This document shows, one piece after another, positions 4,151 to 37,661 of a DNA stretch of 37,982 bases. The notes under the pieces were generated by a model, which saw only the letters and a list, made by a program, of their open reading frames with translations, made no database searches and had not been told where the DNA came from. Made by a program: the position numbers and the translations under genes. How positions within the stretch are numbered: the stretch's first letter is position 1; each line of letters starts with the position of its first letter. Source of the DNA: Rhodoferax sp. Lineage in GTDB: Bacteria; Pseudomonadota; Gammaproteobacteria; Burkholderiales; Burkholderiaceae_C. The DNA lies in contig NZ_JAMPXE010000016.1 in assembly GCF_023701345.1 (NCBI RefSeq), forward strand, positions 1 to 37,982. The letters run 5' to 3'.

Positions 4151-5776
4151 CTACTTGGCCATGTCCACACCGTAGAAGCTGTGACGGCCAAACGGGCTCA
4201 GCTTGAAGCCGATGACTTCCTTGCGCACCGGCTTGATCTGCACCGCGTGGGCAATGGTGAACCAGGGTGCTTGCTGTTTGAAGATCACCTGGGCTTGTTC
4301 ATAGAGCTTGGCACGCTCGGCCGGGTTGGATACCACCTTGGCTTTTTGCACCAGGTCTTCAAACGGCTGGTAGCAGAACTTGGCCACATTGGAGCCGTTG
4401 TTCTTGGCTGCGCTGCAACCCAGCAAGGTGTTGAGGAAGTTGTCCGGGTCGCCGTTGTCACCGGTCCAGCCCAGCATGCCCATCTGGTGCTCACCGGCCT
4501 GCATGCGCTTGCGGTACTCGCCCCATTCAAAGCTCTTGATTTCGGCCTTGATGCCGACCTTGGCCAGGTCGGCCTGCATCAGCTCGGCAATGCGCTTGGC
4601 GTTGGGGTTGTACGGGCGCTGCACCGGCATGGCCCACAGGTCGGTGGCAAAGCCGTCTTTCAGACCCGCTGCAGCCAACAATTTCTTGGCTTCTTCGGGG
4701 TTGAAGGCGTCGTCCTTGATGGCCTTGTTGTAAGACCACTGGGTCGGCGGGATCGGGTTGGTGGCGGGCACGCCAGTGCCCAGATAAACCGCATCGACAA
4801 TGGCCTTCTTGTTGATGGCCATGTTGACCGCCTTGCGCACCCGCACATCGTCGAACGGTTTTTTGGTGGTGTTGTAGGCCAGATAGCCCACATTCAAACC
4901 GGGTTGCTCCAACACCACCACATTGGGGTCTTTGCGGATGGCGGGCAGGTCAGCCGGGTTGGGGTAGGGCATGACATGGCATTCGCCTTTTTGCAGCTTG
5001 GCCCAGCGCACCGACGCATCGGGCGTGATCGAGAAAATCAGGTCGTCGATCTTGGCCTTGCCAGCCCAGTACTGGGGAAACGCCTTGTAGCGGATGATGG
5101 CGTCTTTCTGGTACTGCACCAGCATGAAGGGGCCGGTACCGACGGGCTCCTGGTCCAGCTTTTCAGGTGTGCCCGCCTTGAGCATGGCAATGGCGTATTC
5201 CTTGGACTGGACGCCGGCATATTGCATGGCCAGGTTCGACAGGAACGGGGCTTCAGGGGCGTTTAGCACAATCTTGACGGTGTACTCGTCGACCTTGTCG
5301 ACCGACTTGAGCAGCTTGGGCATACCCATGTCGCCAAAGTAGGCGTGGTTGGAACTGGTGACCTTGAAGTAGGGGTCGTTCTCTTTCCACTGGCGCTCGA
5401 ACATGAACAGGATGTCGTCGGCGTTCATGTCGCGCGAGGGCTTGAAGTTTTTGTTGGATTGCCATTTCACGCCTTTGCGCAGGTGAAAGGTGTACTCCAG
5501 GCCATCTTTGGACACTTCCCACTTTTCCGCCAGGCCCGGCACGACCTTGGTGCCGCCGCGCTCGAAATCGACCAGGTTGTCGTAAATCTGCTCGCTGGCA
5601 TCAAAGGAGGTGCCAGTGGTGTTGACGCTGGGGGCAAAGTTTTCCGGGCTGCCCTCGGAACAGTACACCAGCGTTTTGGCACCGACCTGGCCCACGGCCA
5701 ACAGGGCGGGAAGCGCCAGGGCGCACAGCGCGGTGCGCTTGAGCGCAAATTTGCGGCTTGATTTCAAAACAGTCAT
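4151..5776 (-). CDS. dppA: Periplasmic dipeptide-binding protein of ABC transporter
   Basis: This is an SBP_bac_5 family solute-binding protein of 541 residues, the usual size for DppA (535 in E. coli). An N-terminal Sec signal is evident: basic MTVLKSSRKFALKR, a hydrophobic stretch (LCALALPALLAVG), then cleavage probably before KTLVYCSEGSPENF. Typical family text follows: SFDASEQIYDNLV, TYTFHLRKGVKWQ, VGTGPFMLVQYQKDA, VRKAVNMAINKKAIVDAVY. The ORF is open further upstream to 5932, but the ATG at 5776 begins the signal peptide and has GGAG about 10 bases upstream, so I choose it. It is the last gene of the dpp operon, 55 bases after dppF, and a strong terminator follows. Its role is to bind di/tripeptides in the periplasm and deliver them to DppBC. 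Placing the binding protein last is different from E. coli, where dppA is first. Exact ligand preference (dipeptide, haem, delta-aminolevulinate) is not readable. Confidence 0.92.
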   Translation of the reverse strand: MTVLKSSRKFALKRTALCALALPALLAVGQVGAKTLVYCSEGSPENFAPSVNTTGTSFDASEQIYDNLVDFERGGTKVVPGLAEKWEVSKDGLEYTFHLRKGVKWQSNKNFKPSRDMNADDILFMFERQWKENDPYFKVTSSNHAYFGDMGMPKLLKSVDKVDEYTVKIVLNAPEAPFLSNLAMQYAGVQSKEYAIAMLKAGTPEKLDQEPVGTGPFMLVQYQKDAIIRYKAFPQYWAGKAKIDDLIFSITPDASVRWAKLQKGECHVMPYPNPADLPAIRKDPNVVVLEQPGLNVGYLAYNTTKKPFDDVRVRKAVNMAINKKAIVDAVYLGTGVPATNPIPPTQWSYNKAIKDDAFNPEEAKKLLAAAGLKDGFATDLWAMPVQRPYNPNAKRIAELMQADLAKVGIKAEIKSFEWGEYRKRMQAGEHQMGMLGWTGDNGDPDNFLNTLLGCSAAKNNGSNVAKFCYQPFEDLVQKAKVVSNPAERAKLYEQAQVIFKQQAPWFTIAHAVQIKPVRKEVIGFKLSPFGRHSFYGVDMAK

Positions 5777-32700: not shown

Positions 32701-33220
32701 CGTCGTGGCTGGCCGCCCAGTCCGCCAGCCAGTCGGCGCGGTAGCTTTGGTAGGCGTCGAAGACGTCCGCCACCTGCAGCGCCAGCTGGTAAAGCTTGCG
32801 GCCATCGGCATCCAGCGCCAGGTAACGCTGCAGCGGCGCATATACCAGCTGGCTGGTCGCCAGTTCGGGCAACAAGCGCATCAGCCGCCAGACCAGATGG
32901 CTCTTGTCAAACGGCATGTGCGTCGGCACGGCATGCGCGCCCAGCACACTGCGGTAGACCTGCCACAGGTAGCCGCTGGGCAATTCCAGCCGGGTGGCGG
33001 CGCAAATACCCAGGGCGCCATCGTCAGCCAGCGCCATCTCCAGCCAGTGCTTCATGCCGTTGCTTTGCACCAGAATCACTTCAGGCGTCAGTGGCGGCAG
33101 CGGCTGGGCACGCAGGAACTCGGTGAGCAGGTCGCGCAGGTCTTCCAGGCGGTTGCCGTGCAAGACCATGAAACCGGGCGGGTACGGGGTGGCGCTCACC
33201 TCATGCGTGTGGGTGCTCAT
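29774..33220 (-). CDS. recC: Exodeoxyribonuclease V gamma subunit RecC
   Basis: The 1148-residue subunit (E. coli 1122) shows the RecC opening FMVLHGNRLEDLRDLL and EVILVQSNGMKHWLEMALAD, then family blocks such as MVPDMAAFAPHIQAVFGRFA, RHIPYSVADTTPRQSPLVQAL, GVQFGTLMPMRSIPFKVICLLGMNDGDYPR and RRREDDRYLFLEAILSAR-like text. RecC recognises Chi and holds the complex together; its helicase-like motifs are inactive in the family. The ATG at 33220 overlaps the stop of the MocR gene by 4 bases; ATG 33169 (MVLHGNRL) corresponds better to the E. coli start and is a serious alternative. Gene order recC-recB-recD lacks the ptrA gene found between recC and recB in E. coli. Confidence 0.95.
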   Translation of the reverse strand: MSTHTHEVSATPYPPGFMVLHGNRLEDLRDLLTEFLRAQPLPPLTPEVILVQSNGMKHWLEMALADDGALGICAATRLELPSGYLWQVYRSVLGAHAVPTHMPFDKSHLVWRLMRLLPELATSQLVYAPLQRYLALDADGRKLYQLALQVADVFDAYQSYRADWLADWAASHDVLRGHDGQPGTLAEAHAWQAQLWRDLRADVGPMLADASRASVHARFMTALKSQLAHNQATGQRPGGLPPRLVVFGISSLPMQTVEALAQLGQVCQVLMLVQNPCQHYWGDIVAGHDPLRTQLRHRQAARPQPGDSHPLLASWGKQGRDYLHLLDDFDNVALYRQRMNRVDVFVDPAAGLEQPTLLNQLQSGILNLQPAHGMLDAKRDARPDDDSISLVTCHGAQREVEVLHDRLLAWFDADPALQPRDVMVMVPDMAAFAPHIQAVFGRFAAGQARHIPYSVADTTPRQSPLVQALEQLLTLPASRLSLADWLGLFEVAALRKRFGIDEADVAQLHDWLAMAGVRWGLDASHRMAWGVPAGVSGLDQNTWAFGLRRLLLGYAVGAGAPWGATLPQAALNGLDAAVISALLDWVGAVKQTLQELSDSKTPAQWGPILAGIIERFFAPADDPDERLVQRCLAALDGWLQACDAAQLETPLPLDVVREHWLSQLEESSLQQRFFGGGVQFGTLMPMRSIPFKVICLLGMNDGDYPRQKAARDFDLMDLSWRPGDRSRREDDRYLFLEAILSARHKLYISWQGHRATDNSEQPPSVLVAQLLDYLQMGWQPAIQARQQPLQAFSQAYFLQDSPHRTYARDWARVHQQPTPRASQAPDSPQAAMAAPTSLTLADLRQLLRQPVEVFFKSRLRVRLDTLEELEQTEEPFTLNGLAKYQAGQALLDAADMAPALEKLTLSGSLPMAAFGQRLTTELQEKTQVVLDRQGEWALRYPDPLPAQSIDLQVAGISLTGTLEGLYRGDAGWLQRHQRVGAVLEGNKETRTARAHVVLGLWLQHLVACASAMPLTSVQLGLDGQVILAPLPRDEALRVLQGLVTAYLAAWERPLPVACKTAWAYLQARAQAARLAVEQPDKEAKDPHDAALAVFEGAHSAGERAESAYLARAFESYDELEAELPVWAERLYGDLARYIQLSPNEGIQE

Positions 33221-34695
33221 GTTGAAGTGCTGCTGCGTGATAAAGCGTTGGCGATGGTTCGGGCCAGCAGTGGTCCGAAGCGCTCAATTTCATCCAGCGG
33301 GGCGTAGCCGTAGCCAATGATCAGGCCGCGCAGCCGGGTTTGTTGCAGACAGTACGCTGAGAGCGGGCGCACTGTCAGTCCGAGCTTGCCGATGTGTTGC
33401 GCCAGCGCCCTGTCGTCCAGGGTGTCGGGCAGGCGCAGGCACAGATGCAGGCCTTGTTCGGCCCCGGTGATCTGGGCTTGCGGGCCCAGGCAGGGCTGCA
33501 GCGCCGCCAGCAGGCTGGCGCGCCGCTGGGCGTAACTTTGCCGCGCACGGCGCAGGGCGCTGGCGAAGTGCCCCATGTCGATGAATTCGGCCAGCGCGGC
33601 CTGCACCGGCATTTGTCCGGGCCGGTTGAGGTCGTAGTGGGCGCGCTTGAAAGCTGCGGCCAGGCCTTTGGGAACCACCATGTAGCCCAGTTTGAGGCCC
33701 GGATAAAGCACCTTGGAAAACGAGCCCAGGTAGATCACGCGCTGGTCGGTGTCGAGGCCGGCCAACGAGGAAATGGGCGGTCCGCTGAACCTGAATTCAC
33801 TGTCGTAATCGTCTTCCAGGATCCAGGCCTGGTGCTGGCGCGCCAGCGACAAAATCTGGTGGCGCCGGGGCAGCGACATCACCGCACCGGTCGGGTATTG
33901 GTGCGACGGCGTGACATAAATCAGGCGCGGTGGGGCTGCATCATCGCTGGCTTGAGGGGCAATGCCCTGGTCGTCCACCGGCACGCTGTGCAGCGTCAGG
34001 CCGGTGGCAATGAAGGCTTTGACGGCACCCCAGTAGGCCGGGTCTTCGAGCCAGACCGTGTCGGCGTGGCTGGCCAGCAATTGGGCGCACAGCGCCAGCG
34101 ACTCCTGGGTGCCGCTGGTGATGATGACTTGTTCAATGTCCAGCGGCACGCTGCGAAATATCCGCAGGTAATCTGCCACGGCGCGGCGCAGTGGTGCGTA
34201 GCCGCCCGAGCTGCTGTAGTCGAGCATGTCGGGGTAGGTCATGCGCCAGTGCTTGTTTTGCAGGCGTTGCCAGAGCGTCACAGGAAATGCGCTGAAATCG
34301 GCAATGCCCGCCGTAAAAGGCTGGATTTCAAGGTCGGAGGCGCAAAAGCTGCTGCTTAAGCGCAGGCCGCGGGCCGACAGGGTGGCGTGTCGTTCGGGTG
34401 TGCCACGCTGGCGTTGTGCAGCCAGCCGGGGCACGTTGTCGCTGACAAAGGTGCCGCTGCCGATATGGCTGACCAGATAACCTTCCACGGTCAATTGGTT
34501 GATGGCGGCGACCACGGTGTTGCGTGACAGTTGCAGGTCCTGGGTCAGGTCGCGGCTGGAGGGCAGGCGCTCGCCGGCAGCGATTTTGCCGTCCAGAATG
34601 GCACGCCGCAGCGCCTCGTACAGTTGCCGGTGCAGCGGCAACCTGGCGGGCTGGTTCAGGCGGGCGATCTCAGTCAGTAACAGTTCCGAGAGCAT
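33217..34695 (-). CDS. MocR-type regulator (GntR winged helix fused to aminotransferase-like domain)
   Basis: The 492-residue protein has a GntR HTH at residues 18-85 (PLHRQLYEALRRAILDGKI, LPSSRDLTQDLQLSRNTVV, GYLVSHIGSGTFVS) joined to a fold-type I aminotransferase domain from about 120. PLP-site residues are present: K328 in GSFSKVLYPGLKLGYM, D297 in EDDYDSE, Y/PTG in VTPSHQYPTG. In the MocR/GabR/PdxR family the PLP-bound domain senses an amine such as GABA and the dimer binds direct repeats in divergent promoters. It is divergent from the puuA-like gene, so I infer control of polyamine catabolism. Direct repeats with GabR-like spacing lie in the shared gap (34730-34772). Its 3' end overlaps recC. 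Confidence 0.93.
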   Translation of the reverse strand: MLSELLLTEIARLNQPARLPLHRQLYEALRRAILDGKIAAGERLPSSRDLTQDLQLSRNTVVAAINQLTVEGYLVSHIGSGTFVSDNVPRLAAQRQRGTPERHATLSARGLRLSSSFCASDLEIQPFTAGIADFSAFPVTLWQRLQNKHWRMTYPDMLDYSSSGGYAPLRRAVADYLRIFRSVPLDIEQVIITSGTQESLALCAQLLASHADTVWLEDPAYWGAVKAFIATGLTLHSVPVDDQGIAPQASDDAAPPRLIYVTPSHQYPTGAVMSLPRRHQILSLARQHQAWILEDDYDSEFRFSGPPISSLAGLDTDQRVIYLGSFSKVLYPGLKLGYMVVPKGLAAAFKRAHYDLNRPGQMPVQAALAEFIDMGHFASALRRARQSYAQRRASLLAALQPCLGPQAQITGAEQGLHLCLRLPDTLDDRALAQHIGKLGLTVRPLSAYCLQQTRLRGLIIGYGYAPLDEIERFGPLLARTIANALSRSSTST

Positions 34696-34729
34696 AAGGC
34701 GGCAGAAGTGGCACCATGTGGCAGGTTTA

Positions 34730-34772
34730 AATGGTTCTGATTGTGAACCAATTTAGGGCTCACAATGGTTCT
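34730..34772. promoter_or_regulatory. Candidate MocR operator: two 9-bp direct repeats plus inverted half-site
   Basis: AATGGTTCT occurs at 34730-34738 and again at 34764-34772, 34 bases start to start. Between them GAACCA (34745-34750) is an inverted copy of the TGGTTC core. GabR is known to bind paired direct repeats with comparable, three-turn spacing. The right-hand repeat touches the -35 box of the candidate puuA promoter. Confidence 0.6.
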
Positions 34773-34800
34773 TGATGCAACGCGCACAATACGCACAATA
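34772..34800 (+). promoter_or_regulatory. Candidate puuA promoter containing a 9-bp tandem repeat
   Basis: TTGATG (34772-34777) and CACAAT (34794-34799) are 16 bases apart, with 4 of 6 matches for each box. The region also contains CGCACAATA twice in tandem (34783-34791, 34792-34800), so the -10 box is duplicated. The ATG is at 34829. Confidence 0.4.
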
Positions 34801-34828
34801 GCTGGCACGTTTCACCCTGGAGCAAACC

Positions 34829-36196
34829 ATGAATCCCAAGAAGTCCATGAATTTCAATGATTTGGAGCAGTGGCTCAACGAGCGCCGTGTGACCGAGGTG
34901 GAGTGCCTGGTGCCCGACCTGACCGGTGTCGCACGGGGCAAAATCCTGCCCCGTGGCAAGTTCACCGAAGACCGGGGTATGCGCCTGCCGCAGTCCGTGG
35001 TGGCCATGGGTGTGACCGGCGAATTCCCCGAAAGCGGTCCTTATTACGATGTCATCGACCCCACCGACAAGGACATGCAGTTGCGCCCGGACCCGTCTAC
35101 CGTGCGCATTGTGCCGTGGGCCACCGACCCCACGGCGCAGGTGATTCACGATTGTTTTGACCACAAGGGCAACCTGGTGCCGTTTGCGCCGCGCAGCGTG
35201 CTGCGCCGGGTCTGCGACCTGTTTGCCGCCGAGGGCTTGAAGCCGATCGTCGCGCCCGAGCTGGAGTTTTACCTGACCGCCCGCAACACCGACCCCAACA
35301 CGCTGCTGCGCCCGCCGATTGGCCGCAGTGGCCGCAGCGAGACCTCGCGCCAGGCCTACAGCATTGACGCCGTCAACGAGTTCGACCCGCTGTTCGAAGA
35401 AATTTATGATTTCAGCGACAAGATGGAACTCAACGTGGACACGCTGATTCACGAAATCGGTGCCGGGCAAATGGAGATCAATTTTTTCCACGCCGAGCCG
35501 CTGGGCCTGGCCGACGAGGTTTTCTTTTTCAAGCGCACGGTGCGCGAATCCGCGCTGCGCCATGACATGTACGCCACCTTCATGGCCAAGCCGATTGCCG
35601 GCGAGCCCGGCAGCGCCATGCACGTGCACCAGAGCATTCTGGATGTGACCACCGGCAAGAACATCTTCAGCAACGACGACGGCACGCCGTCCGAGGCCTT
35701 CATGCATTACATCGGCGGCCTGCAGCGCTACATACCGGCGGCCATGGTGCTGGTGGCGCCCTATGTCAACAGCTACCGCCGGCTGTCGCGCAATACCGCC
35801 GCGCCGATCAATATCGAATGGGGCTACGACAACCGCACCGTCGGCATTCGATCGCCGATCTCCTCGCCTGAAGCGCGCCGGGTCGAGAACCGCGTGATTG
35901 GCGCCGATGCCAACCCCTACGTCGCCCTGGCCATGACCATGGCCTGCGGTTACCTGGGGCTCAAGAACAAGATCAAGCCCAAGGCCGAGATGAAGGGCGA
36001 CGCCTACCTGTCGCCCTACGCGCTGCCGCGCAGCCTGGGTGAGGCGCTGGACTGGCTGCGCCGCGAATCCGACCTGCACGAGGTGCTGGGCAAGGAATTC
36101 ATCACCGTGTACTCGGAAATCAAGGAGCTTGAGTTCGACGAGTTCATGAAGGTGATTTCGCCCTGGGAGCGCGAGCATCTGTTATTGCACGTGTAA
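34829..36196 (+). CDS. puuA: Glutamine-synthetase-family gamma-glutamylpolyamine synthetase, PuuA-like
   Basis: The 455-residue enzyme is a class I glutamine synthetase relative of the PuuA/GlnA3-type size. Metal and substrate residues are in place: E144/E146 in PELEFYL, E216 in GAGQMEINFFHAEP, H265/H267 in GSAMHVHQS, and NRTVGIRSP with EARRVENR near the ATP/glutamate site. PuuA joins glutamate to putrescine with ATP to give gamma-glutamylputrescine, the first step of the Puu pathway. The ATG has GGAG 10 bases upstream; ATG 34847 (MNFNDLEQW) is a minor alternative. It is followed after 46 bases by an aminotransferase gene and lies divergent from a MocR regulator. Specificity for putrescine versus spermidine or another amine is inferred from context. 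Confidence 0.88.
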   Translation: MNPKKSMNFNDLEQWLNERRVTEVECLVPDLTGVARGKILPRGKFTEDRGMRLPQSVVAMGVTGEFPESGPYYDVIDPTDKDMQLRPDPSTVRIVPWATDPTAQVIHDCFDHKGNLVPFAPRSVLRRVCDLFAAEGLKPIVAPELEFYLTARNTDPNTLLRPPIGRSGRSETSRQAYSIDAVNEFDPLFEEIYDFSDKMELNVDTLIHEIGAGQMEINFFHAEPLGLADEVFFFKRTVRESALRHDMYATFMAKPIAGEPGSAMHVHQSILDVTTGKNIFSNDDGTPSEAFMHYIGGLQRYIPAAMVLVAPYVNSYRRLSRNTAAPINIEWGYDNRTVGIRSPISSPEARRVENRVIGADANPYVALAMTMACGYLGLKNKIKPKAEMKGDAYLSPYALPRSLGEALDWLRRESDLHEVLGKEFITVYSEIKELEFDEFMKVISPWEREHLLLHV

Positions 36197-36242: not shown

Positions 36243-37661
36243 ATGACCGCTTTGACCACTTTGACGCCTTCGCAGCCCCTATCCACGCAAGAAATTCAGG
36301 CGCTGGACAGCGCGCATTTCATCCACCCGTTCACTGATCACGGCGACCTGGCCACGCGTGGCGCGCGCGTCATTGTCAAATCCGAGGGCATTTATGTCTG
36401 GGATTCCGAAGGCGAAAAACTGCTTGATGCCATGAGCGGCCTGTGGTGCGTCAACGCCGGTTACGGCCGCAAGGCACTGGCGCAGGCAGCGTACGACCAG
36501 ATGCTGACACTGCCGTTCTACAACAGCTTTTTCCAGACCACCAACGTGCCCGCCGTCAAGCTGGCCACGCGTCTGGCCGCGCTGGCGCCCAGGGTGGGCG
36601 ACCGCAGTTTCGAGCATGTTTTTTACTCCAGCAGCGGCTCCGAGAGCAATGACTCCAACGTGCGCATGGTGCGCCGCTACTGGGACCTGCTGGGGCAACC
36701 GCAGCGCAAGGTGATCATCAGCCGCCTCAACGCCTACCACGGCAGCACCATGGCCGGGGCTTCGCTGGGCGGCATGAGCGGCATGCACGCGCAGGGCGAT
36801 TTGCCGATTCCCAACATCACGCACATCGAGCAGCCCTACTTCTTCGAGAACGGCTTGCCAGGGGAAACCCAGGATGCGTTTGGTCTGCGTGCAGCCGGTT
36901 GGCTGGAAGAAAAAATTCTGGCGCTGGGTGCCGACAAGGTCGCGGCCTTCATTGCCGAGCCGATCCAGGGGGCGGGCGGTGTCATCATTCCGCCGGCCAG
37001 CTACTGGCCCGAAATCCAGCGCATTGTGGACAAATACGGCATCCTGCTGATCAGCGATGAGGTGATTTGTGCCTTTGGCCGCCTCGGCCACTGGTTTGCC
37101 TATGAGAAATTTGGCTACAAACCCGATCTGGTGACTTTTGCCAAGGCCGTCACCAGCGGCTACATTCCGCTGGGTGGCGTCATGGTGGGCAACCGCGTGG
37201 CCCAGGTCTTGATTGAAAAAGGCGGCGAGTTCAACCACGGTTACACCTACAGCGGCCACCCGGTGGCTTGTGCCGTGGCGCTGGCCAATCTGGACATCAT
37301 GGAACAGGAGCAACTGCCGCAACGCGTCAGGGACGATATCGGCCCGTATCTTGCCCGATGTTTCGAGGGCATCGCCGAGCACCCGTTGGTGGGTGTGACC
37401 GAAACCTGTGGCTTCACTGCGGGCCTGGTGCTGGTCAGGAACAAACGGACCCGGGAGCGGTTTGCCGGTGATCTTTCGGTGGGCATGATCTGCCGGCGCC
37501 ATTGTTTCCAGAACGGCCTGATCATGCGTGCGGTGGGCGACCGCATGATCATTGCACCACCGCTGACCATGACCCATGCGGATATTGATGAAATGATGCG
37601 CCTGATTCGTCTGGCGCTGGACCTGACACAGCAGGAATTGACCCAAAAAGGCTTGATTTGA
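36243..37661 (+). CDS. spuC: Class III aminotransferase, putrescine:pyruvate type (SpuC-like)
   Basis: The 472-residue PLP enzyme has the class III pattern: LLDAMSGLWCVNAGYG (res. 60-75), SSSGSESNDSNVRMVRRYW (129-147), the NAYHGSTMAGASLGG segment, the aspartate that contacts PLP (D272 in LLISDEVICAFGR) and the Schiff-base lysine K301 in TFAKAVTSGYIPLGG. This text is that of the SpuC/polyamine aminotransferase group, which transfers the amino group of putrescine or cadaverine to pyruvate. Beta-alanine:pyruvate and other omega-aminotransferases are the closest alternatives. The ATG has AAGGA about 10 bases upstream. Location between puuA and a putrescine-binding protein gene supports the assignment. 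Confidence 0.88.
   Translation: MTALTTLTPSQPLSTQEIQALDSAHFIHPFTDHGDLATRGARVIVKSEGIYVWDSEGEKLLDAMSGLWCVNAGYGRKALAQAAYDQMLTLPFYNSFFQTTNVPAVKLATRLAALAPRVGDRSFEHVFYSSSGSESNDSNVRMVRRYWDLLGQPQRKVIISRLNAYHGSTMAGASLGGMSGMHAQGDLPIPNITHIEQPYFFENGLPGETQDAFGLRAAGWLEEKILALGADKVAAFIAEPIQGAGGVIIPPASYWPEIQRIVDKYGILLISDEVICAFGRLGHWFAYEKFGYKPDLVTFAKAVTSGYIPLGGVMVGNRVAQVLIEKGGEFNHGYTYSGHPVACAVALANLDIMEQEQLPQRVRDDIGPYLARCFEGIAEHPLVGVTETCGFTAGLVLVRNKRTRERFAGDLSVGMICRRHCFQNGLIMRAVGDRMIIAPPLTMTHADIDEMMRLIRLALDLTQQELTQKGLI

Follow-up and report, generated by a model that had tools for sequence, protein, structure and literature searches.

A predicted three-box operator in the control region shared by a MocR-type regulator gene and a puuA-like gene of Rhodoferax

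The 133-nt gap between a MocR-type gene and a divergent glutamine-synthetase-like gene (positions 34696-34828 of the window, the whole stretch of 37,982 nucleotides analysed here) is very probably a shared control region with a three-box operator of the adjoining MocR-type putrescine regulator; binding of the regulator, activation of puuA and autorepression are predictions. An operator of this kind was already predicted in 2016. A sequence-only reading of the window had rightly suspected it, but drew the wrong partner box and missed the third; the strongly conserved site extends for the most part further left than proposed there. The features of the region are the following:

33217-34695, minus strand: MocR/GabR-type regulator gene, 492 amino acids, Pfam GntR wHTH and Aminotran_1_2 (class I aminotransferase-like)
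34706-34717, plus strand: predicted operator box 1, AAGTGGCACCAT; TGGNNC in 76 of 76 fitting loci; not noticed in the sequence-only reading
34729-34738, plus strand: predicted operator box 2, AAATGGTTCT, consensus AAnTGGCnCY; TGGNNC in 73 of 76 loci
34745-34753, minus strand: predicted operator box 3, inverted, GAACCAATT; CCA in 76 of 76 loci, GAACCA in 19 of 76
34761-34766, plus strand: -10-like element CACAAT of the predicted puuA promoter; CASAAT at a fixed distance after box 3
34764-34772, plus strand: right copy of AATGGTTCT, overlapping the -10-like element; no conserved half-site
34783-34800, plus strand: tandem duplication, CGCACAATA twice; among the 76 loci, only the window has such a perfect 9-nt tandem downstream of the -10
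34829-36196, plus strand: puuA-like gene of the glutamine synthetase family, Pfam Gln-synt_C
36243-37661, plus strand: class III aminotransferase gene, Aminotran_3; NF005682 above cut-off

The final 4 nt of the regulator gene (33217-33220) are also the first 4 nt of a long gene in the same orientation, which we take to be recC; among the 80 related loci, 9, each from a close relative, have a match to this gene directly after the regulator. On the other side of the gap, the puuA-like product scored 194.8 in the NCBIfam model of gamma-glutamylputrescine synthetase, i.e. below the cut-off of 650. The class III aminotransferase is presumably gatP/spuC-like.

For the comparison, genome contigs were searched with the regulator and the best 80 of 504 loci encoding a relative were kept, mostly from Rhodoferax, Hydrogenophaga and other Comamonadaceae or Burkholderiales. 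The window (L001) and these loci (L009-L088) form a set of 81 loci, close relatives included; the paralogues from the window's own genome (L002-L008) and the loci L089-L117, in which some of these species recur, were omitted. The operator was described by a model of four boxes (GTGGCACC for box 1, ATGGCNC for box 2, CCAAT for box 3 and CASAAT for box 4), and this model was sought within 260 nt with allowed distances of 18-27, 15-23 and 9-15 nt and at most three mismatches. The consensus was derived by visual inspection of the loci that were later counted, which flatters the match and leaves the spacing unaffected, and the scan of the genus described below overlaps with these loci.

Under these conditions the model fitted 75 of the 81 loci (the window and 80 others), and one more, L068, fitted once 400 nt were searched, which gives 76 of 81. 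The best score obtained with 405 mononucleotide shuffles was 5 mismatches, reached twice. The conserved order is direct, direct, inverted (-> -> <-), with AAnTGGCACCaT at 34706-34717, AAnTGGCnCY at 34729-34738 and an inverted box ending with CCAATT at 34748-34753. Boxes 1 and 2 are separated by 23 nt in 75 of 75 loci, boxes 2 and 3 by 17 nt in 74 of 75 and by 18 nt in the remaining one, and box 3 and CASAAT by 13 nt in 55 and by 12 nt in 20 of the 75 loci. In box 1, ten of the 12 positions carry 1.4-2.2 bits each (75 loci). The invariant core of box 3 is CCAAT (34748-34752), followed by a nearly invariant T at 34753. Per-position conservation peaks at 34706-34717, 34729-34738, 34748-34753 and 34761-34767; it is weaker at 34740-34746 and at some positions in 34722-34728, and each position from 34768 to 34800 stays below 0.5 bits. 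After thinning at 75% identity, which left 41 of the 75 loci, conservation was also concentrated in the boxes.

All counts out of 76 refer to loci that were chosen for their fit to boxes 1-4, a choice that favours boxes 1 and 2, with the right copy of AATGGTTCT outside the selection and the five non-fitting loci excluded. In these five loci (L056, L057, L059, L080 and L082), whose regulators show 66-74% identity, the boxes did not fit and no puuA match was found in the stretch examined. Among the related loci the model fitted 72 of 72 with a puuA match and 3 of 8 without one in the stretch examined. The upstream regions of eight more distant regulators (44-52% identity) were searched for TGGNNC pairs at any spacing from 20 to 35 nt. 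Such a pair was found at 23 nt in seven of them and at 24 nt in one; L182, one of the seven, has an additional pair at 29 nt. Shuffles of these eight regions contained a 23-nt pair in 11 of 4000 cases.

The sequence-only reading had started from two copies of AATGGTTCT spaced 34 nt start to start, with an inverted GAACCA between them. The direct repeats of B. subtilis GabR lie about 34 nt apart. The letters are indeed present as claimed, the two copies at 34730-34738 and 34764-34772 and GAACCA at 34745-34750. Dinucleotide shuffles of the gap contained at least one direct 9-mer pair in 132 of 5000 cases and a pair with an inverted 6-mer between its members in 8 of 5000, and in 133-nt tiles across the window the pair occurred in 39 of 285 and the complete triple in 3 of 285. 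The 9-mer pair by itself is modest, not strong evidence, and it is conservation that decides. The left copy sits inside box 2. Judged by the related loci, the left copy and the inverted box hold up as genuine elements, unlike the right copy: at the place of the latter, TGGNNC is found in 14 of 76 loci, TGGTTC in three (the window, L009 and L015) and the exact 9-mer in the window alone (1 of 76). The 34-nt spacing of the pair is not conserved in the relatives, and the exact pair, which we rejected as an operator, is again restricted to the window (1 of 76 loci). Positions 34768-34772 of the right copy reach just 0.04-0.46 bits. Its AATG (34764-34767) is conserved because it is part of CACAATG, the -10-like box.

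The right copy had also been thought to meet the -35 box of the puuA promoter, which we take to be TTGATG; it covers the -10 instead. Three of the 76 loci have TTGATG at this position, and 1 of 76 has a second CACAAT. A spacing of 16 nt between TTGATG and the second CACAAT is created by the 9-nt duplication at 34783-34800, by which the gap of the window measures 133 nt versus 124 nt in L009. The promoter TTGATG...CACAAT was rejected as a candidate: it owes the usual -10 distance solely to the duplication, in 1 of 76 loci, the window. A consensus scan of 34600-34900 returned no sigma-70-like promoter.

These data bear directly on the model in which one dimer occupies the two AATGGTTCT copies 34 nt apart in the alternating order -> <- ->, as proposed for B. 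subtilis GabR, with the right copy meeting the -35 of puuA. The exact 9-mer pair and GAACCA do exist in the window, L009 and L015 also carry TGGTTC at the place of the right copy, and PMC9452892 describes for B. subtilis PgabTD an arrangement of two direct repeats around an inverted repeat. Nevertheless, the rarity of the right copy and of the exact pair, the low information content of 34768-34772 and a promoter-like pair after the -10 that arose by duplication in a single locus make this model highly improbable. What stands of the earlier proposal is the likely presence of a MocR-type operator of TGG half-sites in the gap between regulator and puuA; the 34-nt pair and the alternating order do not hold, with TGGNNC in 76 of 76 loci at box 1 and 73 of 76 at box 2 versus 14 of 76 at the right copy.

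The position of box 1 next to the regulator gene suggests another reading, namely that the operator is a palindrome-type site of boxes 2 and 3 accompanied by the promoter only, and that box 1 belongs to the ribosome-binding region of the regulator. Box 1 directly adjoins the regulator start in L047, L050 and L051, lies 3 nt away from it in six other loci, and its reverse complement begins with GGTG. However, the distance to box 2 is fixed at 23 nt, whereas box 1 can lie anywhere from 0 to 303 nt from the regulator start. Moreover, box 1 resembles box 2 and is retained in the operators that precede puuA in L169 (which includes 47 codons of puuA) and L170; in neither was a regulator start found adjacent. 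We therefore regard this reading as very unlikely. In L171 the first codons of the regulator were found beside the operator, followed by the end of the contig.

According to the three-box reading, the MocR-type regulator would bind one inverted half-site and two direct half-sites, the latter 23 nt apart, or roughly two helical turns. The -10-like CASAAT(G) spans 34761-34767 at a fixed distance from box 3, and in 31 of 75 loci (counted among those in which a start was found) an open frame begins with a start codon 20-25 nt downstream of CASAAT, which fits CASAAT as the -10 element. From this position we infer a transcription start of puuA near 34773; box 2 would then extend from about -44 to -35 and box 3 from about -28 to -20. 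Since the puuA promoter, like others that depend on an activator, has no recognisable -35, recruitment of the polymerase probably requires the bound regulator. In the presence of PLP and a pathway amine a dimer might occupy the direct pair of boxes 1 and 2 and activate puuA; without them, a dimer might also or instead occupy boxes 2 and 3 and block the promoter. The idea of two states is borrowed from PdxR (PMC5320631: apo-PdxR prefers direct repeats and PLP-bound PdxR inverted ones), and which of the two forms pairs with the ligand is a guess. In the window box 1 starts 10 nt from the start codon of the regulator, so that transcription of the regulator gene has to begin within the operator or past it, and autorepression is likely for this reason. 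ATTGTG (34740-34745), whose reverse complement is CACAAT, may be the regulator's own -10; the stretch is moderately conserved, and of the two loci without an adjacent regulator start L170 retains it, whereas it is altered in L169.

The right copy could be accommodated in this mechanism as a fourth half-site, acquired recently in the lineage of the window and lying downstream of the -10. The regulator would then alternate between the ancestral order -> -> <- and a GabR-like order -> <- -> across the promoter, which would add a repressing state of puuA; we give this extension only a very slim chance.

In addition, 89 genomes of the genus were scanned at a limit of two mismatches. The site was found in 46 of them, and a reversed control pattern in none. 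A genome was counted as having the regulator (45 of 89) if the identity was at least 68%, and matches of 37-47% were counted as lacking. Site and regulator occur together in 43 genomes, the regulator only in 2, the site only in 3 and neither in 41 (Fisher p 2.8e-19, a value that ignores the kinship of the genomes). Two of the three site-only genomes, G013 and G077, contain fragments of the regulator at contig ends. In the third, G001, a site with one mismatch stands before puuA (L172, near 4848-4945) beside a 49-codon remnant of the regulator; this frame opens like the regulator and then diverges, which looks like a recent loss. In the two genomes with the regulator only, G059 and G070, about 5.5 kb separate the regulator from puuA, and a site at up to two mismatches was not detected; the best matches upstream of puuA have 8 and 7 mismatches, respectively.

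A search for puuA covered 11 chosen genomes, G059 and G070 and nine near-complete genomes without an orthologue of the regulator. Among these nine, which also lack the site, puuA was present in four (G087, G012, G056 and G046), and no match at E<=1e-100 was obtained in the other five. The best matches upstream of puuA in the four genomes have 4, 4, 8 and 9 mismatches. In G087 (L189) boxes 1 and 2 are decayed, and CCAATT and CACAAT are intact; their persistence in a genome without the orthologue suggests that box 3 may partly be a promoter element. Species without the regulator, in which the operator boxes have decayed to a varying degree, can serve as a natural control.

In the genome of the window itself, which is 90.6% complete, a looser pattern gave 151 matches versus 46 for the control, mostly due to chance, and was replaced by the stricter pattern. 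At up to three mismatches this pattern matched twice, in the gap (0 mismatches) and at one other place with 3 mismatches; the control pattern also matched once, so that the scan has no power at 3 mismatches. The only site at up to two mismatches is the one before puuA. No puuD was found beside this operator in the window. A cluster in G047 (L175, 2139-3077) contains the operator twice, each time before its own puuD-like gene (Peptidase_C26). In G067 the aminotransferase gene is followed by genes for a solute-binding protein, an ABC ATPase, two permeases and an aldehyde dehydrogenase; the window ends before this point.

The regulator belongs to the MocR/GabR subfamily by its domains, with PF00392 and PF00155 above cut-off. 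Its PLP lysine K328 aligns with K312 of B. subtilis GabR and is a lysine in 80 of 80 related loci, and Tyr281 of GabR is likewise kept in 80 of 80. In B. subtilis GabR the GABA carboxylate is contacted by Arg207 and Arg430, as stated in PMC6917764. Arg207 corresponds to Gly223 in the window and to Gly in all 80 related loci, and Arg430 to Ala447, with A in 70, S in 5, G in 4 and K in 1 of the related loci. In the eight distant relatives Arg207 is found in none and the residue at position 430 varies. GABA, if it is sensed, is probably held differently than in B. subtilis GabR. A diamine ligand would fit the comparison of the arginines, which proves none. The model of B. subtilis GabR (NF052285) gave 276.0 bits, below its cut-off of 600.

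That the regulator is a PdxR-type regulator of vitamin B6 genes and puuA a mere neighbour, as the 417.8 bits in the NCBIfam PdxR model NF052282 (cut-off 320) might suggest despite the context of putrescine breakdown, is extremely unlikely, because the only site of its own genome at up to two mismatches stands before puuA and not before a vitamin B6 gene, the operator accompanies puuA- and puuD-like genes in the relatives, and the PdxR label is broad, as the regulator scores higher in the rhizopine MocR model, yet below the cut-off of that model.

Taken together, the boxes, their spacing and their association with the regulator point to the three-box operator, and exact candidate half-sites are now available for the regulator of a regulon predicted in 2016; otherwise the system appears to be one of ordinary catabolic regulation. 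An experimental study of the regulator was not evident by title in the literature searched, which covered few subscription papers, and a search of the GabR papers PMC6917764 and PMC5734734 for operator terms yielded nothing useful. The prediction is that of Suvorova and Rodionov (PMC5320631), who propose for the GabR of Comamonadaceae a motif of two direct and one inverted repeat and a regulon of puuA, puuD, the aminotransferase gatP and an ABC transporter. The regulator studied here is a MocR regulator as well, and its motif is likened to theirs by description and not by letters; of the genes of that regulon, puuA and the aminotransferase are found in the window, the transporter genes in G067 and puuD-like genes in L175. 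The same source lists GabR2, likewise found in Comamonadaceae and associated with GABA and putrescine genes, and it is there that the alternating geometry of the sequence-only reading would point.

With B. subtilis GabR and gabR-gabTD the system shares the domain architecture, the divergent genes, half-sites of TGG type and the PLP lysine. It differs in the contact residues, Gly223 and Ala447 here versus Arg207 and Arg430 there, and in the order of the boxes, -> -> <- here versus the alternating -> <- -> described in PMC9452892. According to that paper, a 41-bp region of B. subtilis PgabTD contains two direct repeats of 6 nt that flank an inverted repeat; when sites of B. subtilis GabR were placed in a synthetic promoter, the GABA response was lost when the first direct repeat was removed, kept without the inverted repeat and partly kept without the second direct repeat. 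The corrected geometry thus avoids misfiling the operator of the Rhodoferax gap with those of the alternating-box regulators, GabR2 and B. subtilis GabR.
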